From Clostridiales bacterium GWD2_32_19 (GTDB lineage Bacteria > Bacillota > Clostridia > Lachnospirales > UBA12420): DNA of 32,534 nucleotides. The stretch lies in NCBI GenBank assembly GCA_001795385.1, contig MGOU01000032.1, positions 1 through 32,534 of the forward strand, in the 5' to 3' direction. Below, piece by piece: positions 3,135 to 31,168 of the stretch. The notes below the pieces were generated by a model, which was given only the letters and a program-made list of their open reading frames with translations, was not told the origin of the DNA and did not search any database. Positions within the stretch are counted from its first letter, which is position 1. Every line of letters starts with the position of its first letter. The position numbers and the translations under genes were made by a program.

Positions 3135-4082
3135 CTATACAATTTCAATTATTGTTATCATACCACTAGATAAACCATTTGCATCAACCAGATGATTATA
3201 GTCCCTGTCGTAGATTATATATTTTCCGGGCGTATTTATTGTAATGATAATGTCATAGCTTTCACCAGATGCAATTGTTACTGTGTTTTTTTGATAAGTC
3301 TTATCGAGTATATTTGATTTGAGTGGTACTGAATCCACAGCTACTACTCTGGCTGTCAGGTTGTCAAATCGGATATTGTGATGCTGGAAACCTGCATTGA
3401 TACACCTGATTAATATTTTCTCTCCTTGGCCAGCCGTGATTTTTGAGCCGCTGGGTTGAGAAGAAGTATCATCTGCTGCTATGGTGTGAGGATAAGACCT
3501 CCCGTTAATTGTCCAATAGTCTGGACTATAACTATACATATCATCAGGTTGCGGATTGATTATTTTTGAATGTAGAGTACTATCTATTTCACCAAGTATC
3601 AGTATTTTTTCAATATCAAATTCACTTCCAGTATTTGCTCCGTATGCTGTTCTTGTCGACGCATCTGTCGCATTAAAACCGGCGGGCCTGATAATAATAA
3701 CTCCATACATCCCCATTTGGATTTGTCTTTCTGAGCTGCTGCCGCTTTCGTAAAGGAATATACCAGGCTTGTCGGATGTATAGCTGTAGCTTACTGCATC
3801 ACCGTTGTTTGCTGCATGGGCGGTATAGGAAATAAATTTGCCGTTAGCATCTTTTACTGGGGTTGGTACAACATTTTGACCCGGGAAAATTATAGATACA
3901 GGTTCATTTAGCGTGTTATGAAGATTAATCTGTATTGTATCACCGACAGTAGCCTCTATTTTAGGTCCAGGAAGCTGTGGCAGGGAAGCGGCAGATTCAG
4001 CATAACCCCAGAAAGGAATTGTAGAACCGTCGGGCATATTTAAAGCACCTAGCTTTGCCCATAAATCTTTTATAATATTCAT
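3135..4082 (-). CDS. Cupredoxin-fold protein without copper ligands (third subunit of split multicopper oxidase)
   Basis: A 315-residue paralogue of the two upstream oxidase proteins, with two cupredoxin domains (about 1-140 and 145-315). It shares their landmarks: a 'W..LGALNMPDG' start, 'LPGP.IEATVGD', 'GIFLYESG....QIQMGMYG.IIIRP', 'DYWTINGRSYP' and 'GEKILIRCINAGFQHH'. Where the first protein has its HCH motif this one has YES; where multicopper oxidases have HPxHxH it has HHNIRF; no C-terminal HCH-type motif remains. Catalytic copper binding is therefore unlikely, and I infer a structural or regulatory role in a complex of all three. It is last in the operon; its AAGGAGGT site lies inside the last codons of the preceding gene, implying translational coupling. 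There is no signal peptide. A stand-alone scaffold role is possible. Confidence 0.8.
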   Translation of the reverse strand: MNIIKDLWAKLGALNMPDGSTIPFWGYAESAASLPQLPGPKIEATVGDTIQINLHNTLNEPVSIIFPGQNVVPTPVKDANGKFISYTAHAANNGDAVSYSYTSDKPGIFLYESGSSSERQIQMGMYGVIIIRPAGFNATDASTRTAYGANTGSEFDIEKILILGEIDSTLHSKIINPQPDDMYSYSPDYWTINGRSYPHTIAADDTSSQPSGSKITAGQGEKILIRCINAGFQHHNIRFDNLTARVVAVDSVPLKSNILDKTYQKNTVTIASGESYDIIITINTPGKYIIYDRDYNHLVDANGLSSGMITIIEIV

Positions 4083-4088
4083 ACTAAT

Positions 4089-5258
4089 TTACCTCCTTAT
4101 TACACCAGTATCTGGTGAAAGAGTTCCAGGTGGATGAATCATTAACATACTCATCATTCCACCAGGGAATTCGCCCCAGTTCGTAATTTGCGGCTCTTCA
4201 TGTGAGTGGAGCATAAAATGGTATTCACCCATTTCGTTATAAGAAACAACCCCAACTGGAATATCTTTCTTCTCACCGAGATATGGACTGCCGCTCCACA
4301 TCGTCCATCCAGGTTCACCTATGCCTAAATTTCTTATACTTGGTAGCAGTGTAGGTATTGGATTGCCGGGAGTATACCCGAGTCCATCCCACTCGAAAAT
4401 CATATCATAGGTTTGACCTGATCCCATTAGTATAGTAAATCTTTTATAAGATAAATCTGTACTTCCGTTTCTTAAGATTCTTCCATCTAGACCAACCAAG
4501 CGAGTATGATTAGCATGAAGATGGAGAGGATGGTTTTCAATTCCTGCATCAATATATCTTACGAGAACCTTCTCGCCGGGTTCCATCATTATCATGCCGC
4601 TGTAAGGTTGGCTTGGCAGAGAGCTTAATCCATTCTTAAGCATGGTATCTGGAGCGCACCTTCCGTTCAAAACCCAGTACCTCGGTTTGTAGTCTTTTAT
4701 ATTGTAAGGCTCTCCTTTTTCTACAGACTTGTGAAGAACCGGGTCAATTTCAGCAACTGTAATTAAATATTCTCTATCAAAATCAGTACCCGTATTTTGA
4801 CCATAAGCAGTTTTTACAGTGTTAAAATCATGTGGTCTTACGACTATTGATCCATATAGCCCCATATGAACCTGCTTTTGTGGATTTGTTCCGCTCTCAT
4901 ACAGGAAAGTTCCCGGGTTTGTTGCAGTAAATCTATAGGTTATTGTTGCGCCAGGAGGTGCATAGTTTGTCAGTGAGATAAGGTCTATTCCTGAAAACTG
5001 TGGTTGTACACTCTCCCAAGTATCATCTGGTTTCTTATATTGTACATTTTCTTGACCCGGGAAAAGCAAGGAGACATTTTCGGGTAGATTATTGTGAAGA
5101 TTTATTATTATTTCATTAGTTTCACTAAAGATTAGTGTAGGTCCTGGCAGTTGGGGTGAAACATCTGCAGAGTCATTGAATCCCCAGAAATAGATGTTGT
5201 GGCCCTTTGGTGTCATAAAATACCCACTGTCAGCCCATAAATCAAACGTTTGTGTCAT
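4089..5258 (-). CDS. Split multicopper oxidase subunit 2 (carries C-terminal trinuclear-site motifs)
   Basis: 389 residues when started at 5258. A longer reading to 5345 overlaps the previous gene and lacks homology; AGGAGGG at 5266-5272 and the conserved domain start (TQTFDLWADSG) fix the shorter form. There are two cupredoxin domains. Domain 1 lacks ligands (YESG replaces YHCH). Domain 2 carries HPLHLH (H243, H246, H248), the typical type 2/type 3 motif, and HSH at 351-353 before 'FPGGMM'. In canonical oxidases the middle residue is the type 1 copper cysteine; here it is serine, so this chain should lack a type 1 site but can supply half of a trinuclear cluster. The complementary motifs are in the gene just upstream. 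No export signal is seen. The family is the multicopper oxidases; the substrate (metal, phenol or other) is unknown. Confidence 0.85.
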   Translation of the reverse strand: MTQTFDLWADSGYFMTPKGHNIYFWGFNDSADVSPQLPGPTLIFSETNEIIINLHNNLPENVSLLFPGQENVQYKKPDDTWESVQPQFSGIDLISLTNYAPPGATITYRFTATNPGTFLYESGTNPQKQVHMGLYGSIVVRPHDFNTVKTAYGQNTGTDFDREYLITVAEIDPVLHKSVEKGEPYNIKDYKPRYWVLNGRCAPDTMLKNGLSSLPSQPYSGMIMMEPGEKVLVRYIDAGIENHPLHLHANHTRLVGLDGRILRNGSTDLSYKRFTILMGSGQTYDMIFEWDGLGYTPGNPIPTLLPSIRNLGIGEPGWTMWSGSPYLGEKKDIPVGVVSYNEMGEYHFMLHSHEEPQITNWGEFPGGMMSMLMIHPPGTLSPDTGVIRR

Positions 5259-5274
5259 TTTTATGCCCTCCTTT

Positions 5275-6306
5275 CTATTGGTTTGGTCTTTCCTGAGGTG
5301 GGAGAGTACCAGTAGGATAAACTTTAACCTCGGATACCATTCCACCCGGTGAAGAACCAGGATTAATATTTTTGTTATGAGATCTATTAAATAGTGGATA
5401 GGTTCCAGTTTCTTGCGCGGTGAAGATTACATCAAGTGTCATACCAGCACCTATATAGATAATGTTCTTAAATGTGGATAAATCCTCACCATTTAAACCT
5501 TTTGGCTGTTGTGCATCAATACCTACTATTTTTAAAGGAATACCCAATAATTCGATACTATGCTGTTGAAATCCAAGGTTGATACAGCGGAGTAGCACCT
5601 TTTCACCTGCGTTTGCTTGAATAAGCCCCGTATAAGGTTGAGATGGATAGCTACCTACTGTAGTATCAACCGTACCAGGATACGAACGGCCGTTTAGAAG
5701 CCAATAATCAGGACTGTATTCGGTCCACTCAAACATCTGGACACCTAAAACTTGGCTGTGGACTCTAGAGTCAAGTTCAGTCATAAATAAGAAATATTCA
5801 CGATTAAATTCAGTCGCTAAGTCGTTATAAGCAAATTTTTTACCATCATTTCCAAGAGCTTTTTCGAGCTCTGGCCTTACAATTAAAGGAGCTACCATAC
5901 CCATTTGGATATGCTCGACCGGTTCGAAGTGACAGTGATACATATAGGTTCCAGGATTAAGGGGCTTATAATAATAACCAAAATCTCTCCCCACAGGAAC
6001 CGATGCAGAAGCCTCAGGGACACCGTCATACAATGCTATTTGATTAGGAAAGCCATGCCAATGCACTGTATGGGAATCATCTAAGTCTGGTCGATCTGGA
6101 AGACCAATATTAGTTAGAGTAAGATAGACATCGTCATTTTCATAAGCTTCAAGAAGGGGAGCCATTAGCGTAGCCTTACCTCTGTGTGAATATATCTCGT
6201 TTTCAGGGATGCCTGTAATATTAGTAAAACCAAATATATAGTGATCTGTCCCATCGGGCATCTTTATATAGCCGTCAGTAGCAGCAAATCGATATTCTTT
6301 ATTCAT
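5275..6306 (-). CDS. Split multicopper oxidase subunit 1 (type 1 copper plus half trinuclear site)
   Basis: A 343-residue protein with two cupredoxin domains. Domain 1 contains HTVHWHG (H79, H82, H84) and YHCHFEPVEHIQMGM (H124, C125, H126, H132, M135/M137). That is a full type 1 copper set (His, Cys, His, Met) plus the HxH pairs expected for half of a type 2/type 3 trinuclear cluster. Domain 2 is degenerate: QHSIELLG replaces HPxHxHG and there is no HCH. The remaining trinuclear ligands are found in domain 2 of the next gene, so the active site is probably formed between chains. The start is one nucleotide after the stop of the large upstream gene, with AGGAGG inside that gene's last codons, implying tight coupling. 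It has no signal peptide or Tat motif. Confidence 0.88.
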   Translation of the reverse strand: MNKEYRFAATDGYIKMPDGTDHYIFGFTNITGIPENEIYSHRGKATLMAPLLEAYENDDVYLTLTNIGLPDRPDLDDSHTVHWHGFPNQIALYDGVPEASASVPVGRDFGYYYKPLNPGTYMYHCHFEPVEHIQMGMVAPLIVRPELEKALGNDGKKFAYNDLATEFNREYFLFMTELDSRVHSQVLGVQMFEWTEYSPDYWLLNGRSYPGTVDTTVGSYPSQPYTGLIQANAGEKVLLRCINLGFQQHSIELLGIPLKIVGIDAQQPKGLNGEDLSTFKNIIYIGAGMTLDVIFTAQETGTYPLFNRSHNKNINPGSSPGGMVSEVKVYPTGTLPPQERPNQ

Positions 6307-6307
6307 T

Positions 6308-9300
6308 CTAACGACCTCCTTTAAAAAATTTAAAAATTTGGAATATAGTATTTAATATATCAATTGCTTCTTGTAAGCTATTATTTGGGTTATTAGGGCT
6401 AATAGTGGATACTTCATCAGCACCTATATCTACTAAACGGAATATTCTAGGTCGATCATCTATATCAAACAATGGAGCAAAATAAATTGAAGAACCTATT
6501 CTAATATTATTGATTCCTTTATTTACGATTGGTGAATTACTAGATGAATGGTAATCTGAGTTCATATTTGGCTCAATTACTATGGTTACTGATACAAATC
6601 TAGGTTGCTGATTTAGAGCTTGAGCTTTGATAAGCGTAGTATATTCTTGTATAAATATTGGAGAATTGTTACCATTGTAAACAATATTCCTTGTTCCGCC
6701 ATTGTAAGGTTTGGATAGATAACAATAATTCGGTGTAAATGTTCTTGGACTTAAAGTTCCGAACACTTCCATATCTATAACTTGATAATTCGGATCAAGG
6801 TTTCCTGTTGTAAAATCAAAACGGTAAGCTCTATTATCCCAGAAAATATTGTTTAGAAGCACTGCATTACTAAAGTCACTAGAACCAGCTGGTAGAGAGG
6901 CTTTAAATGAAGCACTATGGCCTTCGCTTGTGAGGCCAGCGCCATGCGGATTTCCATCACTATCTTCAGCAGTTGCGGTTGAAGCATTTTTGACTATAGT
7001 ATTATTTATTATTCTTACATCCGATGCATCATCCAAAGATATGCCACCGCCCATATCTGCTGCTACGTTGTTTGCTATGATATTGTTAGTTATGCTAAAA
7101 GTTTCCTTGCCAGCCATCAGGAGTCTGATGCCACCGCCATCATCATTTGAAACATTAAATATTATATAGTTGTTATATATATTAACTTTACCTGCTCCTT
7201 CAGAGAGAACAGCAGGTGGACGAGGCAACTCGCCCGCAATCATTATTCCTCCACCTTCATCAAAGGACGCGTTAAACTGTACTTTGTTATGATGTATTTT
7301 ACCACCAGGACTATAGCCAAAGTGGGAGATACCACCGCCGTATTCAGCAGAATAATTGCCACATAATTCATTATTACTTATTTCATAATTGTTGGCACCG
7401 TTAAATATACCAATTGCACCTGCAAGGCTTACACCACCATTATGAAGAATCCTATTATGGTGTATTTGTATATTCGTGTTTTGATTACTTCCTCTATAAG
7501 GCATACCTATGGTTATACCACCACCAAAGCCACCACCATTTTCTTTTATAATATTATTGCTGATAATAAAGTTCTTTCCATATGAATTTATCAATACGCC
7601 TCCTGCAGATTGACCTCTTGCACCTGTTATTGTAATACCGTCAATCTGAGGCTTGAAGGTCGACTTAAAAGTATTGGAGTTAGCAACTACTGTAATTGCT
7701 TGCCCCATAGATTCAACTCTTGGACCATCATAATTTATACTTGCTAGTTTTGATTCCCATGTTGTTTTATAATTCATGAAAAATCTACCGTCAATTATAG
7801 TATCATGGGCACCTTTCCCTTGAAGTTTTATATTTTTATAAATTATTGGACTTTCATAATAAGTTCCTGGCGATAGTATAATAAGACTATCATCTGGAGC
7901 TGAATTAATTGCTGTCTGAATTGCATCATTAGTATTATTAGGGTTAACAGTAAGTATCGTAGGTCTATATGATCCTCTAAGTATGTGAAAGGTTATTCCG
8001 TAAGGTGAAAGCTTACCATCATTTCTTCGAACAAGCAACTGACGAGGGCCATATTGAGTTGACATAGAAATTCTTGCAGTTATCTGGGTGTTAGTCCAGC
8101 TAACAATTTGTATATTGTAACCATCCAGTGTAACCCTACCTCGAGCAGTTCCAAAGCCAGTTCCTGTTATAGTAAAAGTTCTATTTGCCGTTGTATTAGG
8201 TAGACTTACATGAATCTTGCTCAATTCATAAATTTCTGGAGTATTAGCAGAAATAGGACATGGAGGAGGTTGTATAAAGCCGCTTGTAATAGGGAATATG
8301 GCTACGTCTGCGAAAGTTGTTTTACCAGGCCAAATTTCAAATACAAGAGGAAGTGTTTGATAACTACCACTATAGCCTATATTTGGATTGTCCAGATCTC
8401 CAGGGTCATTTGCTATAACACGATACATACCTTGTGCGATACCTGATGGAGTAGGAACATTTGCAGTATAGGTTGAAGGTAAAATAACTTCAAAAATACC
8501 GTTTTTATCAGTATAAACAGTTGTTATAAGTTTTCCGTTATAATCGCGAATACCAATTGGTAGAAGTGGGATTCCTTTTTTTTCTCCAAAATTTATTGAG
8601 TTAGGATCTGTTTCTACATTCAAATCATCTGTGACTAAGCCAACCATTCTACCTGGTACAGGTACATCGGTATACATATAGAAATCGCAAGCCGCATTCT
8701 CTCCATAACCTAATTCAACAACCTTCATGGTTCTTGAAGATTCATAATACGGAGGACTTCCAGGCATAGATAAATAGGAGTTGCCCATGTGCATATGAGG
8801 TGGGTTTGGCTGACTAATTATTGGATCAGTTGGGGGAATTCTTACGAAATCATCACCCTCACTTGTATTAATTGATTGTTCATCAAGAATTTTATATTCG
8901 TCAGGAACAATGACTTCTACAACATAGGTTCCTTCTGATATTCCCTCAAAAGCATAACCACCATCAAAAACACCACGTTTAATCTGGTTACCGCTTGTGG
9001 TAGTTTCTATACATTTAGGGTCTGGACTACCATCAGGTCGGACACATCCAATAGGATGTTCCCAAGAATCACTAGTTGTAGAATCTACAAAAGTTAATGT
9101 ATTATCAGGATTTAGTTTATAAAGGTTTACGCTAACATTCGGAATACCAGGTTCATAATCTTCAGCAGCAGCAAATTGAGGATCCGTTTCATTTCTCATT
9201 GTAGCGTTATAAATAATGCCTGATATGCCACCATTAGTTAAAATGGTATTATCTGATAAAGTCAGAGGATATTCCTTCATGCCCCAGTCTATTTTATTTG

Positions 9301-10723
9301 TAGATCCAAACCAAGTTAAAGTTGATAAAGTCAGAGCACGATCATGTGTGACTGTAGGACCTTCCGTAGGACTTCCAAAATCAGATGTTGATACTGCTTT
9401 TGTATATCCAAAACGTGTAAATCCTAGTTCAGCTAAAGTATAAAGTCCTAATGGAAATACTTCATTGAGTGAATAATTGCCATTCATATCGGTTATGGTA
9501 CTATATTGTATACTGCCGTCTTTATAACGTGTTCCAACATCTACTAATGGTAAACCTTCTTCACCAATTTCTTTTATACCGTTATTATTGGCGTCGCGAA
9601 ATACGTTCCCTTTTATCCACCCATACCAGCGTGGAACACCAATGTCGCCCATGTTAGTAGTACTACCATTTATTATTTGAACTGTTCTAAACTGCATAAT
9701 ATAGTCAAGGGGCTCGTCCCAAATAGCCATCTGGTATAAACCATCTGGAACATTAGTTATCATAAAGGTTCCATCAGGATTTCCTCTACCTGTATAAACT
9801 TGCTCATCGTTACCACCTATATCATTTAATGCTATCCATGGACGATCCACTGGCTCGCCTAAAGCAAGTGGACTCTGTGGTGGGGCAAATTCTATAATAT
9901 TTCTTATTCTACCCTCGATTGTTCCTGTGCCTGGAGCCTTGACTTCTCCCCATTCCATTGGCTTAATAAAGCCAAACCATACAAGTGGGGTTTGAAAGCC
10001 TTTCTCATACAAATATCCGTCGTTTCCTTCTTCAATCCATGCTGCGAAAGCATGTTTTCCTTCAATGGTGCTGGTTTGTATCCAGCCGTATCCATCTGGA
10101 GGAATTGCCTGAACTTCATATTTTCCCGGCGCTAGATTTTCAATAATAGCTTCTCCACTCACATCTGTAACTACTTTTCCAGCTGTATTGGGAATTGGTA
10201 TTGGATTCCCATCTACATCAAAGATGAAGGTACCATCGGGATTTTTCTCATACTGAGTACCAACCGGATTTCCAAAGTAATCAACAGTTACTTCACCTAT
10301 AAGATCTTCCACTACTATATGAAAGCCTGGAAGACCTACTTCAGCAGGAACGTCATCTTGTCCATTAACAATATGGTTATCATGAAAAACTTTGGCACGG
10401 ATTTTTGCCAAAGGCAAAGGATGCTTATTTAATTTTACTATTGCTGTTGTACTACTGGCAATATTGACATGGATTCCGCCAAGCTTATAACCTGGGGCTT
10501 GTACTGTTATAAGATATTTGCCGTTAGGAACATTAACAACATTTGAAGAAGCATCACCCACAGCCTGGATTGGACTGTAGCTTGCTTTGTGCCTGATAGA
10601 AGGCCAATCATCAGGGTTCTGGCTGAATGGGTCGCCGGTATTATCAATGCTGACAATATATTTATAGTCAGTTATGGGTGTATCATGAGTTATTTCCTGT
10701 ACGTTGATTGTTAGTGTTGGCAT
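6308..10723 (-). CDS. Giant multimodular SdrD-B-like / IPT / beta-helix protein
   Basis: 1471 residues from the ATG at 10723, chosen for AGGAGGT at 10734-10740 and because the longer reading runs into the predicted promoter. Modules in order: an N-terminal PEGA-like segment (about 1-105); carboxypeptidase-regulatory or SdrD-B-like beta sandwiches (about 105-260, 265-365, 368-480, 498-690, 690-812) with recurring 'G.I.G.V..D.N..G' and 'G.Y.....P' patterns; an IPT/TIG domain (about 826-915); and a right-handed beta-helix (about 925-1400) with many N-N-x-I and GGGI turns of the NosD/pectate-lyase kind. A short tail with an amphipathic or hydrophobic end follows. PPHMHMGNSY near residue 641 is His/Met rich and might bind metal. 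No signal peptide, LPXTG or membrane anchor is visible. As first gene of the oxidase operon it is a candidate scaffold placing the cupredoxin proteins on a surface. No enzymatic residues were recognised. Confidence 0.85.
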   Translation of the reverse strand: MPTLTINVQEITHDTPITDYKYIVSIDNTGDPFSQNPDDWPSIRHKASYSPIQAVGDASSNVVNVPNGKYLITVQAPGYKLGGIHVNIASSTTAIVKLNKHPLPLAKIRAKVFHDNHIVNGQDDVPAEVGLPGFHIVVEDLIGEVTVDYFGNPVGTQYEKNPDGTFIFDVDGNPIPIPNTAGKVVTDVSGEAIIENLAPGKYEVQAIPPDGYGWIQTSTIEGKHAFAAWIEEGNDGYLYEKGFQTPLVWFGFIKPMEWGEVKAPGTGTIEGRIRNIIEFAPPQSPLALGEPVDRPWIALNDIGGNDEQVYTGRGNPDGTFMITNVPDGLYQMAIWDEPLDYIMQFRTVQIINGSTTNMGDIGVPRWYGWIKGNVFRDANNNGIKEIGEEGLPLVDVGTRYKDGSIQYSTITDMNGNYSLNEVFPLGLYTLAELGFTRFGYTKAVSTSDFGSPTEGPTVTHDRALTLSTLTWFGSTNKIDWGMKEYPLTLSDNTILTNGGISGIIYNATMRNETDPQFAAAEDYEPGIPNVSVNLYKLNPDNTLTFVDSTTSDSWEHPIGCVRPDGSPDPKCIETTTSGNQIKRGVFDGGYAFEGISEGTYVVEVIVPDEYKILDEQSINTSEGDDFVRIPPTDPIISQPNPPHMHMGNSYLSMPGSPPYYESSRTMKVVELGYGENAACDFYMYTDVPVPGRMVGLVTDDLNVETDPNSINFGEKKGIPLLPIGIRDYNGKLITTVYTDKNGIFEVILPSTYTANVPTPSGIAQGMYRVIANDPGDLDNPNIGYSGSYQTLPLVFEIWPGKTTFADVAIFPITSGFIQPPPCPISANTPEIYELSKIHVSLPNTTANRTFTITGTGFGTARGRVTLDGYNIQIVSWTNTQITARISMSTQYGPRQLLVRRNDGKLSPYGITFHILRGSYRPTILTVNPNNTNDAIQTAINSAPDDSLIILSPGTYYESPIIYKNIKLQGKGAHDTIIDGRFFMNYKTTWESKLASINYDGPRVESMGQAITVVANSNTFKSTFKPQIDGITITGARGQSAGGVLINSYGKNFIISNNIIKENGGGFGGGITIGMPYRGSNQNTNIQIHHNRILHNGGVSLAGAIGIFNGANNYEISNNELCGNYSAEYGGGISHFGYSPGGKIHHNKVQFNASFDEGGGIMIAGELPRPPAVLSEGAGKVNIYNNYIIFNVSNDDGGGIRLLMAGKETFSITNNIIANNVAADMGGGISLDDASDVRIINNTIVKNASTATAEDSDGNPHGAGLTSEGHSASFKASLPAGSSDFSNAVLLNNIFWDNRAYRFDFTTGNLDPNYQVIDMEVFGTLSPRTFTPNYCYLSKPYNGGTRNIVYNGNNSPIFIQEYTTLIKAQALNQQPRFVSVTIVIEPNMNSDYHSSSNSPIVNKGINNIRIGSSIYFAPLFDIDDRPRIFRLVDIGADEVSTISPNNPNNSLQEAIDILNTIFQIFKFFKGGR

Positions 10724-11090
10724 ATCGGTACTAACCTCCTTTTTTTTTATATATTTAATATTGTATATAATATATAATATGAGGTGTTGCATGAAATGTT
10801 ACCTGAATAAGAAATAAATGGGGTCAAGCTTGATACCGTTCGCCATTACATAACCAAAACACTTGTAGTAATTTTTAATTTATAGTAATATAATAAAGGT
10901 AATAAATAGAGAAAAAATAAGAGGTGGCAGTGTAATGATACGGATACAGGCTTGAATTTTAGAAATTCATATATAAGATTTCTAAAATTTGAGTTTGACC
11001 TTGTCCCTGTTTTTGTATAATTGATGATATAAATATGGATGTGAGTTGTACGGAATATCATATGCTTCAAAATAGATTTTTTAATATCCG
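10724..11090. other. Gene-free stretch with promoter and REP-like hairpin
   Basis: There is no convincing gene here. It contains the sigma-K-like promoter, a fragment GGGGTCAAGCTTG at 10820-10832, and a perfect 12-bp inverted repeat, AATTTTAGAAAT (10955-10966) with ATTTCTAAAATT (10978-10989), extendable by G-U pairs to CTTG/TGAG. Flanking phrases such as TTGACC and GTCCCTG resemble sequences I associate with RAYT/REP elements. It is probably the left edge of the mobile-fragment cluster. Confidence 0.5.
10773..10799 (-). promoter_or_regulatory. Sigma-K-like promoter of the oxidase operon
   Basis: On the minus strand, AC (10798-10799) is followed after exactly 16 nt by CATATTATA (10773-10781). 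This matches the sigma-K consensus of AC, a 16-17 nt spacer and CATANNNTA, described for late mother-cell genes of Bacillus. Transcription would begin about 40 nt before the ATG at 10723, leaving room for the AGGAGGT site. In AT-rich DNA such matches can occur by chance. Confidence 0.5.
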
Positions 11091-11099
11091 TCTTTATGA

Positions 11100-11339
11100 C
11101 ATTGTTGCAGTTTTAACTTTAAACAGGGACAATCATTACCTACACATAAACATGAAAATTCCTCTTTGGTTTTAACTGTACTATCAGGGGCTGGAAATAT
11201 TAAAATTAATGATAATATACAGGAAATGGAACAGGGAGCAGTAGTAATGGCAAATGGGCAAGATGATTTTGGCATTCCTACTGTAACCGAAGATATGTCT
11301 GTTTTAGTAACAATTAGTCCTAACCCAACGAATAAGTAA
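11100..11339 (+). pseudogene. Cupin-domain protein remnant, 5' truncated
   Basis: An open frame of 79 codons from the TGA at 11097-11099 to the TAA at 11337 encodes a cupin core: GQSLPTHKHENSS (motif 1 with H-x-H-E), VLTVLSGAGNIKIN, and an ending VTISPNPTNK that I associate with small cupin_2 proteins. There is no plausible start codon or ribosome site, and the usual first 20-30 residues are missing. The downstream end abuts an IS transposase remnant on the other strand. I read it as a decayed chromosomal cupin gene broken by mobile DNA. The minus-strand ORF over the same bases is an artefact. Confidence 0.6.
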
Positions 11340-11760
11340 GTTTAGAAAGATAAGAATTAGAAACTAGAAAAACATTAGAGCAAACCATACACTGGAATTG
11401 ACCCTTGCCACCATTGTTATTATAGAGATAATCATGAGGAGCACCACAAAAAGGGCAGACAGTAGAATGGTCAATAGACTTACCGTTTCTACGGCTAACA
11501 GGCTTTAAAGGTTTACCATGATTAGATTCAAAATCTTTAAGTAAGACCTTATAATCAAGTTCCATACGTTTAACGAAGAAATCGTCCATATCAGCAGGCT
11601 AATCAATAGCAAACTGACGATACTTAGGAGAAATAACACTATAATCCTCTTTGATGGCATCCCAGTCGTCATGAAGAGAAATCAGAAACTTTTGTAAACT
11701 CCAAATAAATTTGTTTAAGTACTTTAAAATTTTAATAAAAAATGTTATAATTTTACCCAA
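11320..11760 (-). pseudogene. IS transposase N-terminal fragment with in-frame stop
   Basis: Reading the minus strand from a TTG at 11760 (AAGGAGG 9 nt upstream) gives one frame of about 146 codons interrupted by TAG (around 11607-11609) after 'PKYRQFAID'. The later part contains a zinc ribbon, CPFCGAP then CMVC, with 'YNNNGGKGQFQC', typical of the N-terminal segment of some IS transposases in Clostridia. No DDE catalytic core follows: the frame ends at 11320 over the 3' end of the cupin remnant. An imperfect inverted repeat, ACTGTTTTT/AAAAAACAGT, at about 11816-11846 may mark the element's outer end. The IS family was not determined. Confidence 0.6.
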
Positions 11761-11880
11761 GCAGTTGTACCTCCTTGTGATGGTTTGTGGTAAAATTATT
11801 ATAATAAAGGTGTAACTGTTTTTGTATATAAAAAAATAAAAAACAGTAAAAATCTCAACCTCTTAAGGGAGAGGGAAGAC

Positions 11881-11941
11881 AATACTGATAAAATATATTG
11901 AATATAAAGGGCTAGTGTAGTATTTAGTATTATAAATATTT
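11881..11941. repeat. 61-bp dispersed repeat, copy 1
   Basis: Nearly identical (two differences in 61) to 26951-27011. It ends where the truncated RAYT reading frame begins. It contains TTGAAT-17 nt-TATTTA, promoter-like, and the left arm of a hairpin whose right arm is degraded in this copy (TGATACTGAC, against TTACACTACC in copy 2). Confidence 0.85.
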
Positions 11942-12704
11942 GATACTGACTGAAAATATGGCGAGGTGGAGATATATATTTAAGCTATATGCATATTGTA
12001 TTATGGATAATCACGTACATCTACTTTTAGAAGTAGGTGACACTCCATTAACAAAAATAATGCAGGGAATACAGCAGGTATACACACAATGGTATAATAG
12101 GAAAAATACGAGAACAGGCCATGTTTTTTAACAAAGATATAAAGCAATTGTATGTGATAAAGATGGTTACTTATTACATTTAACAAAGTATATACATAAA
12201 AATCCTGTAGAAGCAAACATGACAAAAGATGCAAACTACGAGTGGAGTAGTTATGGGGAATATGCAAGAGGAAGAGAAGAAGTTGTAGACATAGAATTTG
12301 TACTAAAAATATTATCAAATAATAAGGCAAAAGCAATAGCAGAATATAAAAAATATATAAACGAAGAAATTGATGATATTGAACAGTGCGAATATGAAAT
12401 AAAGGAAGCTCAAAAGGGTAATGTAAATAGAACTAAGAAGATAGAATTAGATGATTTAATAGAAACAATACTAATGAGAGAAAAGGTGAGTATAGAAGAA
12501 ATAAAAATAAAAACGAAAAAGCAAAGAATATCAGATATAAGAAAAGCTATAGTTCTATTAGCAAAAAAGCATTGTAAAACAACTAGTACTGAATTAGCTG
12601 ATAAACTTAACATACAGGTATCAATGGTATCAAAGATAAAAGCTGGGGAAATAAAACAAACAGAATATTTAAAAGAGATAACTAAAACATATAATAATAA
12701 TTGA
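11940..12704 (+). pseudogene. RAYT (REP-associated Y1 transposase) pseudogene
   Basis: Encodes a Y1-type HUH transposase of the IS200/REP-associated group: KLYAYCIMDNHVHLL (the HUH motif reads HVH), 'LTKIMQGIQQVYTQWYN', 'GHVF', then 'LLHLTKYIHKNPV' and 'YEWSSYGEY'. A C-terminal helix-turn-helix-like region (about the last 90 residues) is common in Firmicute RAYTs. It is broken in two ways. The N-terminal 40-50 residues are missing, the frame starting at the edge of the 61-bp repeat. An in-frame TAA at 12129-12131 follows GHVF where glutamine (CAA) is usual, consistent with a single C-to-T change. The second half (12219-12704) could be translated alone but would lack the catalytic histidines. 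CCCTGACCCC just downstream resembles RAYT-flanking sequence. Confidence 0.82.
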
Positions 12705-15708: not shown

Positions 15709-16818
15709 CTATGATAAAAGCTGTGTTTTTTTACCCCTTTTTCCTGAAATCAAAGCACTTATAAACAATAGCATTTCAAGTCCTGACTGAACAAATAGAG
15801 CAATAAACATATACGAATAAAAAGTGAAATTAAATACATCAATGTTACTATCAAAACAAGTTACACTAAGAATAAATGCAATAAGTACTGAAGGCCAAAT
15901 AAGTGGCTTGTATGTGCTTAGTCCTGTAATTTGAGCTATTCCAAGATTGAAAGCCCATATTAAATTTGCGCAAGTCATAGCTCCTGCTCCTATAGATATC
16001 ATTAGCCATAATATTTCTACACGCTCAATAACAGTACCTATATGGACTGATCTCGCAAGTTGAAAACTAGGGTTCAGCATATTTCCTGCTTGTTCTGAAC
16101 CAAAAGTACCTATAGCTAAACAAAGGCTTCCCGCTATAGTAGTAGCTCCTATACTAACTGCAATGAATTTAGCTAAAAAACCGTTTTTAGGTCGGTTACA
16201 AATAGGTATATACATACCCATAATAATACAAATACCTATAAAACTCAGTATAAATGGAATACCAGTCAAAAAGGGATAAACCCCTTCTACAAGTAGTGGT
16301 TTTAATCGGTGCAATTTTACTTCTGGGATTCCCATGAAAAGTAAAATAATCATACTTATTAAGTATATAGGACCCAAGGCTTCACATGTTCTTGCTATTA
16401 CCTCTATTCCTTTACTTACACCATAAGCTATTAAAACATATCCGAGTCCAAGAACTACTACCATAGGTGTTCTTGGCAAAAACAGATTGACAAGCAGTGC
16501 ACTGAGGGATCTCATCAAAAGAGAAGCTGTCATCAGAAAAAAAAGTGGAAACATTATGCCAACTATTCTTCCTACATATTTCCCTAAAATTGTCATGCTG
16601 TACTGTACCATGTTTTGTCCCGGAAAACGCAGTCCCATATATGCATAGACCATAGCCAGTAATAAATCTATAAACCATGCACCTATTACTGACATCCATG
16701 AATCACGACCAGCATGAGATATTAACAACCCTGGTATTTGTAGTGCAGTAAAAGAGGTTATTATACTAAAAAGCATCCAAACAAATTGATTGGTACTTAT
16801 TATACATTTTTCTTTCAT
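15709..16818 (-). CDS. gerAB: Spore germination receptor B subunit (permease-like)
   Basis: A 369-residue GerAB/GerKB-family protein with about ten membrane helices, related to APC-type amino acid permeases; in germinant receptors it is the subunit that binds the small-molecule germinant. Typical features are the opening 'IISTNQFVWMLFSIITSF', 'GRDSWMSVIGAWF' and 'LGKYVGRIVGIMFPLFFL'. The start at 16818 is set by AAAGGTGG 6 nt upstream; the longer frame to 16872 adds an unrelated tail overlapping the previous gene. Length is normal. It is the last gene of the ger operon, in the order A-C-small-B. No clear terminator was found behind it. The germinant cannot be deduced. Confidence 0.92.
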   Translation of the reverse strand: MKEKCIISTNQFVWMLFSIITSFTALQIPGLLISHAGRDSWMSVIGAWFIDLLLAMVYAYMGLRFPGQNMVQYSMTILGKYVGRIVGIMFPLFFLMTASLLMRSLSALLVNLFLPRTPMVVVLGLGYVLIAYGVSKGIEVIARTCEALGPIYLISMIILLFMGIPEVKLHRLKPLLVEGVYPFLTGIPFILSFIGICIIMGMYIPICNRPKNGFLAKFIAVSIGATTIAGSLCLAIGTFGSEQAGNMLNPSFQLARSVHIGTVIERVEILWLMISIGAGAMTCANLIWAFNLGIAQITGLSTYKPLIWPSVLIAFILSVTCFDSNIDVFNFTFYSYMFIALFVQSGLEMLLFISALISGKRGKKTQLLS

Positions 16819-16831
16819 ATTAACCACCTTT

Positions 16832-17044
16832 CTATTTGAATATAGCCTTACCATAGGGGCTAAGAAAGTCATCCATCAATGCAATAGGTCCTTTCATATC
16901 TAACGCGTTTACAATTGCTAAGAATAAAGAAATTCCTATTAAAAATCCAAAAACGCTTAGTTCTCTCCAAAGTTTATTTTTAATCATGTGCAATCCGTAA
17001 GCACAGAATATTAAAATCACTGCAAAAATTGTTATAATTAGCAA
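16832..17044 (-). CDS. Small two-helix membrane protein, ger D-subunit-like
   Basis: 70 residues from a TTG at 17044 with AGGAGAG 6 nt upstream. A longer reading from the ATG at 17098 (88 residues) overlaps the gerAC stop as TAATG but has no good ribosome site, so either is possible. Two membrane helices (about 2-20 and 30-48) are followed by a short polar tail. Some Bacillus and Clostridium germinant-receptor operons carry a fourth small two-helix gene, called the D subunit, which modulates receptor function; size, topology and location fit. Sequence alone gives no mechanism. Confidence 0.65.
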   Translation of the reverse strand: MLIITIFAVILIFCAYGLHMIKNKLWRELSVFGFLIGISLFLAIVNALDMKGPIALMDDFLSPYGKAIFK

Positions 17045-17097
17045 ATCATTCTCTCCTTTTTTCCATAATGACAAAACAATAGGATATTCAGTAACCA

Positions 17098-18315
17098 TTA
17101 TTTTCTATACTCAATGTTAGTATTTTGCTTTTCTTTGATAAGGCCTATCTGGTTAATTGTTGATTTTACATCTATATTAAGCTTAATATGTTTTAGATAC
17201 TCATAATTTTTCCTTTGTATTTTCTTAAAGTAATCTGGGTAATCACCATAAAAATAATTTCCAAACTCAAAAACATCTGAATTTAATTCTTTTGACTTAT
17301 TGAAAGCCAAATTAATTAGTTTTTTTATTTCTTTAGCTTGTAAATTTTGTATAATTTTAATAACTTCAGATTCTTCGTAATCTAAATATGCCTGACTTTC
17401 TGCTATATTTGATAATATATCTATTTTAATATTTATTTGCATTTTTCCATTGGATAAGACTGGCTTTATTTTTGAATTCATTTTTATAATTTGTAAAGAT
17501 ATATCTTTTTTATGATATTGAACTGATATATTACCTCCTTGTATATCTCCTTTAGTAAATAAAAGACCTCTACTTTCATCGTTGTCCATCCAACCTACCA
17601 GTTTACCTTTTTTAAATACTGCTGTATTTTCAATTTTTAAATTATAGGTATCATTTGCCTTTTGATATTGATTTTCAACTTCACTTCCCCCTGTAGTTAT
17701 TTCAAGATGACTAATACCAGATGTATAAGGGTCACTGCCCGTTCCCCATAAAAGATTTAAAAAATCTCCCAGAGTATTAGCAGTTAAATATGAATTTCTT
17801 AATTTATTCTCGAGTATACCATTTATTAGTTTACCGGTTTCAGTACCTGGTTCTATATTTATAGCAGTACTTAAAACTTTATTAAATTGATTTTTTTTTG
17901 CAATCAAAAGCCATGTATTACGCCTTATTCTAGGATTTCTTTCGAAATAATCAATAAATATATCTATTCCCTTTGTACTAACAAACTCTTCTGATAAAAT
18001 TATAGCCCTTGTATGAGAAAGATAATTAATGTGTTGATTTAATCCACTTATTTTCTCCATAGCTTCTGATATCGTAGGTGCTATTGCTTCATGTGCTTTT
18101 GCTGGCATTTTATTAGAACTATTGCTTCCCTCCCCAACTGAATTCTGTTTTGTACTAATAAGTTCTTCAGTTACCACTTTAATCTGTCCATCTTTTGTAG
18201 AATCGATTCCCATAACGGTTATTAGTCCCAATCGTTCAGATTCCCTTGAATCCCAACAACCTGATAGTAAAACACAGAGAATTGTTGTAGCAATGAAAAT
18301 TATAATTTTTTTCAC
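17098..18315 (-). CDS. gerAC: Spore germination receptor C subunit (lipoprotein)
   Basis: A 405-residue Ger(x)C-family lipoprotein. The signal peptide ends in a lipobox LLSGC with lipidated C20, followed by WDSRESERLGLITVMGID, the family's typical mature start. It should sit on the outer face of the spore inner membrane with the A and B subunits. Translation starts at a GTG that overlaps the gerAA stop (TAGTG), with an AAAGGTGAT site inside the gerAA end, so the two are coupled. The length is usual (about 370-410). The central part contains the family's 'ILSEEF....G' region near residue 115 and a conserved 'NIEPGTETGKLI' segment. Confidence 0.93.
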   Translation of the reverse strand: MKKIIIFIATTILCVLLSGCWDSRESERLGLITVMGIDSTKDGQIKVVTEELISTKQNSVGEGSNSSNKMPAKAHEAIAPTISEAMEKISGLNQHINYLSHTRAIILSEEFVSTKGIDIFIDYFERNPRIRRNTWLLIAKKNQFNKVLSTAINIEPGTETGKLINGILENKLRNSYLTANTLGDFLNLLWGTGSDPYTSGISHLEITTGGSEVENQYQKANDTYNLKIENTAVFKKGKLVGWMDNDESRGLLFTKGDIQGGNISVQYHKKDISLQIIKMNSKIKPVLSNGKMQINIKIDILSNIAESQAYLDYEESEVIKIIQNLQAKEIKKLINLAFNKSKELNSDVFEFGNYFYGDYPDYFKKIQRKNYEYLKHIKLNIDVKSTINQIGLIKEKQNTNIEYRK

Positions 18316-19946
18316 TATGAATCACCTTTCTTTTTGAATAGATGCCAAGTCTTACTAGAATTCATATTTTCTAGGTTACTAGTACTATTATCAGCATGAT
18401 TCCTATCAAGTCCCCACCATGGAAAACGTAGTACTGTATCTTTTAGACTTTTCGTCATTAAAGGTGCTATTGGATCCATATATGGCTTTCCAAAACTTTT
18501 CAAAGAGAAGACATGTAACAATAAAAACAATATACCTATCATAAGTCCGAATAAACCAAATGTAGCAGATATAAGCATTAATGGGAACCTAATTATCCTA
18601 ACAGTAAGTGCAGCACTAAATTGAGGCAGACAGAATGTAGAAATACCTGTTAAAGCTACTACAATTACCATTAATGGAGATGCTATATGCGCTTGTATTG
18701 CCGACTGACCTATAACTAAAGCTCCAACAATACTAACTGCTTGTCCTACTGGTCTTGGCAGACGTATACCGGCCTCATGTAAAATCTCAAATGTAATTTC
18801 CATCATAAAAGCTTCTATAAAAGCCGGAAATGGTATATCAGAACGTGATGACACAATGCTTATAAGAAAGTCTGTAGGAACCATCTCCTGGTGAAAAGTT
18901 GTAATTGCAACATAAAAAGAAGGAAGAAATAATGATACAAAAAGTGCCAGGTATCTTAAAAGCCTTATTAGACTGGAATATATATATCCATTATAATAGT
19001 CTTCAGCAGACTGCATAAGGGAAAAAAACTCACCTGGAACTATAAGTGCCATTGGAGTATTTTCAACTATAATTGCTACTCGTCCTTCTAACAAAGCAGC
19101 GGCAACAACATCTGGCCTCTCGGTATTTCGTGCCTGAGGAAATATTGAATAAGGATTATCCTGAATATACTCTTCTATATAATTTCCTTCAAGCACCCCA
19201 TCAATATGTATTCTATTAAGTCTTAATCTAACTTCATCTACAAGCCCCTCTTTACATATATCTTTCATATATGCTATACATAATTTTGTTTTACTTACAG
19301 TACCTATTTCTGATCCTTCAAACATCAAATTGGGACTGTGTAGTCTCCGTCTTATAAGCCCTATATTAACACTTAAAACTTCTACAAAAGCTTCTCTAGA
19401 GCCTCTTACTACTGGTTCTACATCAGATTCTGTTACTCTCCTGTAATCATATCCCTTGGCACTTATAATATAAACCTCATCAATTCCATCAATTAAAAGT
19501 CCAACCTCTCCAATTAGTAGCCTGCTTAAAAGATCATTAAAGTCTTCACCCCTCTTGGTCTCTCCTCTGGTGATTAAATTCCCTGCTTGAATTTGTTTTA
19601 TTATCTTACTGCCTGATTCAAGTCCAGATGTATATGCATCAAGCACAAGTGGACGTACGATGTTATCATCTATGTGATGTGTGTCAATTAGATTATCAAT
19701 ATAAATAATCGCCGCATCTCTGACATCGCTCCTACCTAATGTAATAGTTCTAATTATAAGATCAGTATTATTACCCATAATTTCTCTTGTTTTTTTTATA
19801 TTCTCAATTAGCGAACATGAGATTTTCATTTTAATTAATTCAGCGTCTTTAAAGCTTTTAGTACTGTACTGCTTAATATTTTCTTTTGGTAATAAACCAT
19901 CTATTTTATCATGTGAATCAATAAATTTTTTTATATATTTTATCAT
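18315..19946 (-). CDS. gerAA: Spore germination receptor A subunit
   Basis: A 543-residue GerA-family protein. The N-terminal soluble domain (about 1-300) contains 'CSLIENIKKTREIMGNNTDL', 'GEVGLLIDGIDEVYIIS' and 'NPYSIFPQARNTERPD'. The C-terminal half has about five to six membrane helices and the conserved 'FHQEMVPTDFLISI' and 'EAGIRLPRPVGQAVSIVG' segments. In germinant receptors the A subunit oligomerises into an ion channel. The ATG at 19946 is preferred to a GTG two codons earlier because GAGGTGG spacing suits it. It is first in the A-C-small-B operon. Upstream DNA up to 20100 shows no convincing sigma-G or sigma-F promoter by eye. Confidence 0.94.
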   Translation of the reverse strand: MIKYIKKFIDSHDKIDGLLPKENIKQYSTKSFKDAELIKMKISCSLIENIKKTREIMGNNTDLIIRTITLGRSDVRDAAIIYIDNLIDTHHIDDNIVRPLVLDAYTSGLESGSKIIKQIQAGNLITRGETKRGEDFNDLLSRLLIGEVGLLIDGIDEVYIISAKGYDYRRVTESDVEPVVRGSREAFVEVLSVNIGLIRRRLHSPNLMFEGSEIGTVSKTKLCIAYMKDICKEGLVDEVRLRLNRIHIDGVLEGNYIEEYIQDNPYSIFPQARNTERPDVVAAALLEGRVAIIVENTPMALIVPGEFFSLMQSAEDYYNGYIYSSLIRLLRYLALFVSLFLPSFYVAITTFHQEMVPTDFLISIVSSRSDIPFPAFIEAFMMEITFEILHEAGIRLPRPVGQAVSIVGALVIGQSAIQAHIASPLMVIVVALTGISTFCLPQFSAALTVRIIRFPLMLISATFGLFGLMIGILFLLLHVFSLKSFGKPYMDPIAPLMTKSLKDTVLRFPWWGLDRNHADNSTSNLENMNSSKTWHLFKKKGDS

Positions 19947-20099
19947 GTCCACCTCTATAAATTACATTAATTTCAAGTTTTACAATTTATTTATTATTAT
20001 TCCACATGGTAGTCTTAGATATGTATGTTTTATTTAAAAGAGAAGTAATAGATTAAGATAACACAAATTGAAAATAAATGTTTATAGAGATAAACAGGC

Positions 20100-21552: not shown

Positions 21553-21597
21553 TAATACAAGTACAAACAAAAAATTATATAATAGGAGATGGTTATT

Positions 21598-22920
21598 ATG
21601 AACTTAAGGGAAGAAATAGCTAAAGATTTAATAAGTGAAGGTAAGTATTCAAATGGGGATGTAACTTTTGAAGTAGATGAAAATGGTGTTAGAATGATTT
21701 TTTATAAAAAAGAAAATTTACCTACAAATTTACTTACAGGTTTGTCTGAAGATGAACTATCTAGATTTAATCCATCTGAAATAAATGTAAATGGTTTTAT
21801 TTCAGATGATATAGAGATAGTAAATGATGATAAGAGGCTGTTTTCTTTAAAGAGTAAAGGAAATATTGAGAAATGTGTTGATGATTTGTTAAAATGTTGC
21901 TATAAAGTACAGACGGTATATGATAAAGAAGCTAGTCATATTACTAGGATGTTTGGAAGTTATATATTAATTTCAAAAAAGGATGATGAACTTAAAGCTA
22001 TATATTCAACGCCACCACCTATTAAATATTGTCCATTAATGTTTAATTTGTTAAAGGAAATAGGGGGTAATGTAGCCGAAAAATTGCTAATGTCACTTAA
22101 AGATGGTAGACAAGAGGATTCTCAAAAAAATATGATAGATTTAATAAATAATGTTGTGATAAAAGGTGGAGGGTTTGATGATAATAGACCGCTCAACTCA
22201 TGTGAGAGAAATGTTGCATTTGGAGCATCTGAAATAATGTCAGATGCAATGGAAAGAGGAAAAATCGATGCTGCTGTCATTGTATCAAACAATCTAGGGA
22301 CAGTTATAACAACAAGTCCAGTAACAACTCAAGGTGTTGTGAAAAGGATGTCAGGTTTGTTCTATACTACTCCAAGTCCTGAACTAGTGGAAGAAGCTTT
22401 TAAGGAAGGAGTAATACCTGTATTTCCTTTTACAGGAAAGATTGATCAAGTAGAAGGGGTTAAGCAAGCAATAAAAATGGGATATAAAAATATTTCTGTG
22501 TCGGTTGCTGCAAATGACAATAAATACTTAAAACAAATATCAGAGCTTGAACAGGGAGATGTAAAAATCCATAAATTTGGCTTATGCGCAACAGGAATAA
22601 ACAATGAAACGGCAGAGATTATGGGTGAAAATGCAGATATAGTTTGGTCTTGTGCATCTAAACTAGTAAGAGAAATAATAGCACCTAAAGCAATGGCCCA
22701 AGTAGGTATAAAAATCCCAGTATATATATTAACTAAAAACGGATGGAAGCTTGTAAAACCTAGAATTAATCAAATAGACGAGTGTCTTAATTTAGATAAA
22801 ATTAACTTGAATACAGGAGATGATATGCCGATAATATATAATAAAAATGATGGACTTGAAATGATGAAATTTGAAGAACTTGATAAGAGTTGTATCGATT
22901 GTCCTAGACCATGTATTTAA
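21598..22920 (+). CDS. DUF2099 family protein (methanogenesis marker 8-like)
   Basis: 440 residues from the ATG at 21598, 9 nt after AGGAG; an ATG at 21589 overlaps that site. I recognise the DUF2099 / methanogenesis marker protein 8 family by the core (about 200-390): CERNVAFGASEIMSDAM, 'VIVSNNLGTVITTSP', 'GRMSGLFYTTPSP'-like (here KRMSGLFYTTPSP), FTGKIDQVEGVKQAIKMGY, and ADIVWSCASKLVREI. About 190 N-terminal residues precede it. The last residues carry CIDCPRPC (C432, C435, C439), which could bind a metal or Fe-S cluster. The family is best known from methanogens, with homologues in anaerobic bacteria; its biochemical role is not known to me. It is probably controlled by the divergent LysR gene. 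A terminator follows directly. Confidence 0.78.
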   Translation: MNLREEIAKDLISEGKYSNGDVTFEVDENGVRMIFYKKENLPTNLLTGLSEDELSRFNPSEINVNGFISDDIEIVNDDKRLFSLKSKGNIEKCVDDLLKCCYKVQTVYDKEASHITRMFGSYILISKKDDELKAIYSTPPPIKYCPLMFNLLKEIGGNVAEKLLMSLKDGRQEDSQKNMIDLINNVVIKGGGFDDNRPLNSCERNVAFGASEIMSDAMERGKIDAAVIVSNNLGTVITTSPVTTQGVVKRMSGLFYTTPSPELVEEAFKEGVIPVFPFTGKIDQVEGVKQAIKMGYKNISVSVAANDNKYLKQISELEQGDVKIHKFGLCATGINNETAEIMGENADIVWSCASKLVREIIAPKAMAQVGIKIPVYILTKNGWKLVKPRINQIDECLNLDKINLNTGDDMPIIYNKNDGLEMMKFEELDKSCIDCPRPCI

Positions 22921-30178: not shown

Positions 30179-30380
30179 ACGCAAACCCCCTTTTACTATT
30201 TATTAGTTTTTGGAGGTATAGAAATAATATACATTATTATTTTATAAAGCTATTGAGGGAAAAATATTTTAGTGTTATAATATCATATATAATAAAAAAC
30301 ATATACATACATAATTGAAAATAATATAGATTAAGAAAGAGTAATATTAGAAGGAAAAATTTAAGAAGGAAAAAATTAAT
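30179..30380. other. Upstream region of cooS, no gene
   Basis: AT-rich DNA with no supported ORF. It must contain the cooS promoter on the minus strand, but no strong -35/-10 pair stood out. The adjoining part to 30544 is repeat. Confidence 0.4.
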
Positions 30381-30544
30381 TAATCTCTTTGGGTTTAATT
30401 CCCCGTCGGCTTGCCGCGTTCTTGTCATTGCGAGGAGGTTCTTTCGACGAAGCAATCTCGTTTTTGAAAGATGAGATTGCTTCGCAAAAACGCTCGCAAT
30501 GACAACATGATACCCCGTCGGCTTGCCGCGGGGAGATTCATTAA
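30381..30544. repeat. REP-like element split by insertion of a palindromic MITE-like element
   Basis: The outer parts match the intact repeat at 12878-12929. Between two copies of CCCCGTCGGCTTGCCGCG (30401-30418 and 30513-30530) lies a 94-nt insert (30419-30512) built as a double palindrome: TTGTCATTGCGAG (30422-30434) with CTCGCAATGACAA (30493-30505), and CGAAGCAATCTC (30448-30459) with GAGATTGCTTCG (30473-30484). TCATTGCGAG...GAAGCAATCTC is a palindrome I recall as widespread in bacterial genomes. No ORF is present. Confidence 0.88.
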
Positions 30545-30595
30545 TTAGTCAACTTTTCAAGTAGTTTGTTAAATTAAAATAAAAAGGAGAAAAAA

Positions 30596-31168
30596 ATGGG
30601 GAAAATATTATGGAAACCTGGTAATATGGTGTATCCGATACCTGCGGTTATTGTAACTTGTGGGAATTGTGAAGAAAATTATAATGCAATTACTGTTGCT
30701 TGGACGGGTACAATTTGTACAAATCCACCGATGACATATATATCAATTAGGCCATCTCGACATTCGTATAAAATAATAGAGGAAAATATGGAGTTTGTCA
30801 TTAATTTGACTACTGAGGATTTGGTGAGGGCGACTGATTATTGTGGGGTTCGCTCGGGCAAGGATGAAAATAAAATTGTAAACGCAAAATTAACATTGGT
30901 ACCAGGAAAAGAAGTAAAGGCACCGCTTATAAGTGAAAGTCCCGTAAATATTGAGTGTAAGGTGGTAGAAATTAAAAAACTTGGATCTCATGATATGTTT
31001 ATGGCGGAAGTTGTAGCTGTTCATGTTGATGATAAATACATTGATGAGGATAATAAGTTTCATCTTGACGATTCAAAGCCAATATGTTATTCTCACGGAC
31101 TATATTTTGGGTTGGGAGAAAAGCTTGGGAAGTTTGGGTACTCTGTAGAGAAGAAAAGTCAAAAATAA
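30596..31168 (+). CDS. Flavin reductase family protein (FMN-binding split barrel)
   Basis: A 190-residue flavoredoxin/flavin reductase-like protein. Features: 'MVYPIPAVIVTCG' opening strand, 'NAITVAWTGTICTNPPMTYISI' core (FMN phosphate region, given by T37-W38, P47-P48), 'RPSRHSYKII', 'FVINLTTEDL', 'DYCGVRSGKDENKI', and a C-terminal 'SHGLYFGLGEKLGKFGYS'. These anaerobe flavoproteins pass electrons between NAD(P)H or ferredoxin-linked donors and acceptors; the partner is unknown. AAAAAGGAG precedes the start. It is monocistronic, following the REP/MITE element, and its nearest redox neighbour is cooS on the other strand. Confidence 0.88.
   Translation: MGKILWKPGNMVYPIPAVIVTCGNCEENYNAITVAWTGTICTNPPMTYISIRPSRHSYKIIEENMEFVINLTTEDLVRATDYCGVRSGKDENKIVNAKLTLVPGKEVKAPLISESPVNIECKVVEIKKLGSHDMFMAEVVAVHVDDKYIDEDNKFHLDDSKPICYSHGLYFGLGEKLGKFGYSVEKKSQK

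Follow-up and report, generated by a model that had tools for sequence, protein, structure and literature searches.

Multicopper oxidases are thought to have evolved from homotrimers of two-domain subunits into enzymes with three or six domains on one chain, shedding redundant copper centres. Two-domain oxidases place their trinuclear centre where two protomers meet, with domain 1 contributed by one and domain 2 by its neighbour (PMC13151041), and those of type C assemble as trimers that have the centre at this inter-protomer position (PMC13151041; PMC3192119). Ceruloplasmin and MnxG have kept one trinuclear centre of three on a single chain, with type 1 copper in even-numbered domains (PMC3600357). 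Here we analyzed a four-gene unit of Clostridiales bacterium GWD2_32_19, located on the minus strand at positions 3135-10723 of a 32,534-nucleotide stretch of contig MGOU01000032.1 (hereafter the window). The unit consists of G, which encodes a giant beta-helix protein, followed by M1, M2 and M3, which encode two cupredoxin domains each. We consider it likely that the four proteins are subunits of one complex with a single active centre composed jointly by M1 and M2.

M1 (5275..6306; 343 amino acids), M2 (4089..5258; 389 amino acids) and M3 (3135..4082; 315 amino acids) each contain a Cu-oxidase_3 domain and a second cupredoxin domain according to Pfam, which bears out the original prediction of three consecutive genes with six cupredoxin domains in total. 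The Cu-oxidase scores were 26 bits for M1, 42 bits for M3 and 14 bits for M2, the last being under the curated cut-off for that model. The three families were aligned with plasmid-borne two-domain oxidases of type C (L092, L093 and L095), and the columns of L095 were used as the reference. The domain-1 columns comprise a type 1 His, two trinuclear His, a His-Cys-His group and a further type 1 His (seven positions), and the domain-2 columns comprise two plus two trinuclear His. All seven domain-1 positions were present in 42/42 M1 sequences and essentially lost in M2 and M3, which have hydrophobic residues, Pro, Glu, Ser, Gly or Gln in these columns. Conversely, all four domain-2 histidines were present in 42/42 M2 sequences and in none of M1 or M3. 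Wider family alignments (75-81 sequences per family) showed the same split, which leaves M3 without any conserved copper ligand set.

In the window, the first M1 segment, H79-H84 (HTVHWH; 6055..6072, minus strand), provides a type 1 His and two trinuclear His; H79, H82 and H84 were each conserved in 81/81 sequences of the wider alignment, and these columns were filled in 42/42 M1 and in no M2 or M3. The second, H124-M137 (HCHFEPVEHIQMGM; 5896..5937, minus strand), supplies a trinuclear His, the type 1 Cys, another trinuclear His, a type 1 His and the axial Met, with H124, C125, H126 and H132 conserved in 81/81 sequences and M137 in 80/81. The other trinuclear half is found in domain 2 of M2: H246 and H248 within H243-H248 (HPLHLH; 4515..4532, minus strand; 78/78, and 42/42 M2 compared with 0 in M1 and M3), and H351 and H353 within H351-S352-H353 (4200..4208, minus strand; 78/78 and 42/42), where a Ser occupies the place of the type 1 Cys. 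The Paraburkholderia proteins, which are only about 30% identical, displayed the same division, with HTVHFHG and HCHITPPEHLQMGM in M1, HPFHEHG and HSH in M2, and no such motif in M3. One complete ligand set is present among the six cupredoxin domains.

Since the domain-1 half is confined to M1 and the domain-2 half to M2, the trinuclear centre cannot be built by any single chain or by any homotrimer; M1 alone and M2 alone would each be unable to make one. Given these ligand positions and the location of the centre between neighbouring protomers, we infer that domain 1 of M1 must face domain 2 of M2. One ring would then hold one centre, compared with three in a homotrimer. The original prediction had raised an inter-chain trinuclear site, and the division of the type C ligand set between M1 domain 1 and M2 domain 2, complete in the 42 loci of the ligand test and seen at 78-81 loci in the wider alignments, agrees with it.

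The nearest solved relatives, by both sequence and fold matches, are the type C trimers of Nitrosomonas europaea (3g5w) and a metagenomic laccase (2zwn). As in these enzymes, each chain of the unit has two cupredoxin domains, the type 1 ligands are in domain 1, and trinuclear ligands come from both domains. However, a type C oxidase is encoded by one gene, forms three identical subunits with three centres and carries both trinuclear halves on one chain, which is not so in M1, M2 or M3; here, one ligand set is split between two of three paralogous genes, and the giant partner G sets the unit further apart. In a maximum-likelihood tree, M1, M2 and M3 each formed one clade across four phyla (support 100/96, 95/95 and 99/95, respectively), M2 and M3 were sisters (100/99), and four outside two-domain oxidases, the only outgroup used for rooting, joined at the M1 stem. 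This topology fits a type C enzyme that would have duplicated before the unit spread, with the ancestral domain 1 kept by M1.

The six-domain oxidases ceruloplasmin, hephaestin and MnxG resemble the unit in that their cupredoxin domains number six and a single trinuclear centre survives, the rest having decayed (PMC3600357). However, they are single chains with type 1 copper in domains 2, 4 or 6 and the centre at the D1/D6 or D2/D3 interface, whereas the unit has separate chains and a type 1 site in the N-terminal domain of M1. Because of this placement, a diversified type C trimer is a more fitting description of the unit than a split ceruloplasmin or MnxG, and the likeness of the unit to these proteins is one of outcome, not of membership. 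Of the original prediction, which compared the split unit with ceruloplasmin and MnxG, the six domains on three chains stand. The Mnx complex of Bacillus PL-12 (MnxE3F3G) is likewise bacterial, encoded by contiguous genes and a heteromeric, spore-associated multicopper oxidase (PMC5622069), but all its copper-oxidase domains are in MnxG, and MnxE and MnxF are small and, by description, neither cupredoxin paralogues nor beta-helix scaffolds. No description of the four-gene unit was found in the literature, although the search covered only open-licence papers and the absence is weak evidence. Among ordinary two-domain oxidases, those of haloarchaea and Rhodococcus (L092, L093, L094) adjoin a metal transporter gene (of the ZIP family in L093), and a metal-dependent regulator is also nearby in L092 and L093, a hint that this branch may have a role connected with metal ions.

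A search with M1 as the query against one genome per species, which favours close relatives, returned 80 loci in Bacillota (Thermincola, Moorella, Desulfallas, Tepidibacillus and others), Chloroflexota and Actinomycetota. To these were added five more Bacillota genomes, the window and two betaproteobacterial plasmids. Wherever the contig was long enough, the partners were present: M2 at 84/84 loci, M3 at 77/77 and G at 82/82. As M1 was itself the query and the search is biased towards close relatives, free-standing distant M1-like proteins may nevertheless exist. M1, M2 and M3 were three separate genes at every locus examined, and the six domains were never on one chain. The order G-M1-M2-M3 is common to Bacillota, Chloroflexota and Actinomycetota, which excludes a chance arrangement. 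The unit is conserved in at least four bacterial phyla. The neighbourhood check suggested with the original prediction therefore gave the opposite of genes that are scattered and never together, and the unit is not peculiar to Clostridia, as it also occurs in Chloroflexota, Actinomycetota and Betaproteobacteria. Within Bacillota the distribution is patchy, M1 having been detected in 20/348 sampled genomes, and no conserved neighbouring genes were found there beyond the four. Pairwise distances of the four proteins were correlated (r 0.76-0.92; permuted maximum 0.17), which fits joint inheritance of G, M1, M2 and M3. In Oscillochloris sp. ZM17-4 (L064, L076), the unit occurs twice in tandem on one contig.

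G (6308..10723, minus strand) leads the unit and encodes 1471 amino acids. It starts at ATG 10723, which is preceded by AAGGAGGT; a longer frame from ATG 10792 lacks a ribosome site. The M2 start was placed at ATG 5258, as the listed GTG 5345 overlaps M1 and is an unlikely start. The intergenic gaps from G to M3 are exactly 1, 16 and 6 nt, and the ribosome sites lie inside or directly after the ends of the upstream genes, in agreement with the tight coupling first noted for the locus. Pfam identified SdrD_B, CarboxypepD_reg and TIG domains in G, and the remainder of the TIG region together with the beta-helix half (6311..8176, minus strand) was modelled by AlphaFold as a right-handed beta-helix with a predicted local distance difference test score (pLDDT) of 91 and a predicted template modelling score (pTM) of 0.91; the predicted SdrD-B/IPT/beta-helix leader protein was thereby recovered. 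The best PDB matches of this model in Foldseek were glucanases, polygalacturonases and alginate epimerases or lyases, all beta-helix proteins (AlgE4, PL6 lyases, GH28 and GH87). The C-terminal half of G thus has the same fold as these carbohydrate enzymes, and its N-terminal half shares SdrD_B domains with Sdr-type surface proteins. Unlike either group, G has no enzyme family assignment and is always beside or fused to cupredoxin genes. It is about 50-57% identical to G at other Bacillota loci.

Betaproteobacteria (Cupriavidus metallidurans and Paraburkholderia) have M1 and M2 followed by a fused M3+G gene. In C. metallidurans, a single reading frame spans M3 and G (L090, from 11989 to the end of the stretch), and in Paraburkholderia the fusion is an annotated gene of 2723 amino acids, BEI72459.1, labelled "hypothetical protein" (L091, 14174-22345). 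As the two proteins are separate elsewhere, their fusion is evidence for M3 and G working in contact. A candidate for a natural fusion among the cupredoxin genes, a frame of 1086 amino acids in genome G300, turned out to be merely a stop-free frame and was dismissed as an artefact.

The M3-G fusion also bears on where M3 sits. M1 and M2 might be active without M3 in the ring, for example as an M1-M2 heterodimer or a mixed hexamer, with M3 serving only as a cupredoxin-fold docking module or anchor of G. The lack of copper ligands in M3 and its fusion to G would suit such a role, as would its being the least conserved of the three and its long C-terminal extensions in Chloroflexota and Actinomycetota (up to about 700 amino acids; L019, L050, L075 and others). 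We nevertheless regard this arrangement as unlikely, as all known two-domain oxidases form a three-membered ring (PMC13151041), and M3 is the sister of M2 and keeps the full two-domain fold, as expected for a third ring position. This fold was seen in a test for the ring, for which loci where M1, M2 and M3 lie in one frame were read through the stops and folded as a single chain with AlphaFold. In the L010 chain (39 aligned rows), the subunits folded well (mean pLDDT 80, pTM 0.60), and the M3 part matched 2zwn with a Z score of 31.2 over 265 residues at 1.8 Å. Foldseek ranked ceruloplasmin and factors V and VIII at the top for the whole chain, and the Mnx structure 9bxa was at rank 12 (E values about 1e-44 to 1e-49). 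MnxG was not among the sequence matches listed, an absence that carries no evidential weight. Of the C-terminal extensions, that of L019, the sole one scanned, had no Pfam match.

Export calls were made with a simple hydrophobicity rule, not with SignalP. A twin-arginine translocation (Tat)-like signal was present on M1 at 59/64 non-Bacillota loci and at 0/23 Bacillota loci. Outside Bacillota, hydrophobic leaders were also found on M2 (62/62), M3 (50/60) and G (43/53). In Bacillota, M3 (0/22) and G (0/24) lacked them, and the lone M2 hit, in an over-long window frame, was not genuine. At 54/64 non-Bacillota loci and 0/24 Bacillota loci, M3 or the fused M3-G gene is followed by a gene for a small conserved protein, which is probably a fifth component of the exported versions. 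This protein (L036:13294-13815; L091:22342-22830) is itself exported or membrane-anchored and has no Pfam or NCBIfam match. A secreted S8 subtilase gene adjoins many exported versions (about 17 loci; L021:13216-14856; L077, L080 and others). In Chloroflexota and Actinomycetota, genes for CopC and a CopC-CopD protein lie a little downstream of M3 (about 24 loci; L019:13937-16428).

The CopC/CopD neighbours are relevant to the question of whether the copper centre is used at all. The unit could serve a purely structural purpose on the surface or in the spore coat, its copper centre being a relic with no catalytic role: ligands are gone from 4/6 cupredoxin domains, strict anaerobes carry the unit, and factors V and VIII are a precedent for loss of copper function (PMC3600357). 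Against a relic, one set of 12 ligands has stayed invariant or almost so across four phyla as every other set decayed, and CopC/CopD genes adjoin many of the exported versions. We therefore consider a purely structural complex very unlikely.

For the leaderless Bacillota versions, the known leaderless multicopper oxidases of Firmicutes offer a guide: CotA (PMC3618234) and MnxG (PMC5622069) are spore proteins. By analogy, the Bacillota complex may be assembled on the spore. SpoIVA is present in this genome, and genes for haem-copper oxidase (COX1) and cytochrome bd were not found in it; for an anaerobe without terminal oxidases, an exposed dormant spore would be the most sensible place for O2 chemistry. 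There is some chance, though a minor one, that the complex instead remains inside vegetative cells and consumes O2 in them, acting for instance as an oxygen scavenger. The missing signal peptides and terminal oxidase genes, together with a statistically non-significant link to sporulation, favour that possibility. The cytoplasm, however, is copper-poor, and an extracellular-type Sdr/beta-helix protein combined with a multicopper centre would be ill-suited to it; the precedents of CotA and MnxG likewise argue for the spore.

The assembly comprises 1.97 Mb in 47 contigs and belongs to Bacillota; the G+C content of the window is 33%. CooS, an anaerobic carbon monoxide dehydrogenase, had been recognized in the window from the outset and was identified by TIGR01702 (673 bits); it lies with a divergent flavin reductase-like gene at 28040-31168. 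Genes of a GerA-type spore germinant receptor (GerA, GerAC and a spore permease) are located at 15709-19952, about 5 kb upstream of the unit. Apparent broken gene pieces, namely a zinc-ribbon IS1595-like fragment and DnaA-C-like frames, occupy 10800-12704 upstream of the unit, and a bacterial homologue of methanogenesis marker 8 (DUF2099), scoring under the NCBIfam cut-off, is found at 21589-22920.

Several results weigh against the reading of the unit as a ring-forming, spore-routed complex. The L010 read-through model contained no ring, although this is a weak test, as the short linkers of the M1-M2-M3 chain make the order required by the ligands, M2-M1-M3, hard to adopt. Its superposition on ceruloplasmin-type chains gave a template modelling score of 0.22 and a root-mean-square deviation of 33 Å, so that the domains match but not their arrangement. 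The correlated distances and the kept gene order are partly due to shared inheritance of one operon. SpoIVA was present in 19/20 carriers compared with 299/348 sampled genomes, a difference that was not significant (p 0.20). A tentative sigma-K-like promoter candidate, AC-N16-CATATTATA, lies 58 nt before the G start (10773..10799, minus strand), and a sigma-K-like -10 motif was present upstream in 6/24 loci against 3.0 expected, which was also not significant.

Weighing these points, we still favour one complex. M1, M2 and M3 would be paralogues derived by duplication from a type C two-domain multicopper oxidase, normally a homotrimer with a centre at three interfaces. M1 would have retained the domain-1 half (type 1 copper and four trinuclear His), M2 the domain-2 half (four trinuclear His) and M3 neither. 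In the simplest assembly, which we infer together with its stoichiometry and copper loading, M1, M2 and M3 form a ring in which domain 2 of M2 lies beside domain 1 of M1 to make one active centre, and M3 occupies the third position and connects the enzyme to G. The type 1 copper of M1 would take electrons from a donor, for which a metal ion or a phenol is a candidate, and the centre that M1 and M2 share would reduce O2 to water, while G may act as a scaffold that fixes the oxidase to a surface of the cell or to a matrix. The parts are exported in Actinomycetota, Chloroflexota and Betaproteobacteria, M1 by Tat; in Bacillota they lack signal peptides and would most plausibly be synthesized in the mother cell, destined for the surface of the spore like CotA and MnxG. 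We lean slightly towards the fullest form of this proposal: a widespread, undescribed and obligate heterotrimeric multicopper oxidase, in which two paralogues form the trinuclear centre in trans and the ring is tied to a beta-helix surface scaffold by a third, copper-free subunit. Such an enzyme would be a convergent counterpart of ceruloplasmin on separate chains, exported in some phyla and re-routed to the spore in anaerobic Firmicutes.

If this proposal is true, the loss of two of three active centres has been caught at a multi-gene stage. A living heteromeric stage with a centre at one interface would make this evolutionary step directly testable by mutation and reconstitution. Moreover, a common gene cluster, "hypothetical" in at least one deposited genome, would encode an O2-using surface enzyme that spans phyla from Actinomycetota to strictly anaerobic spore formers.

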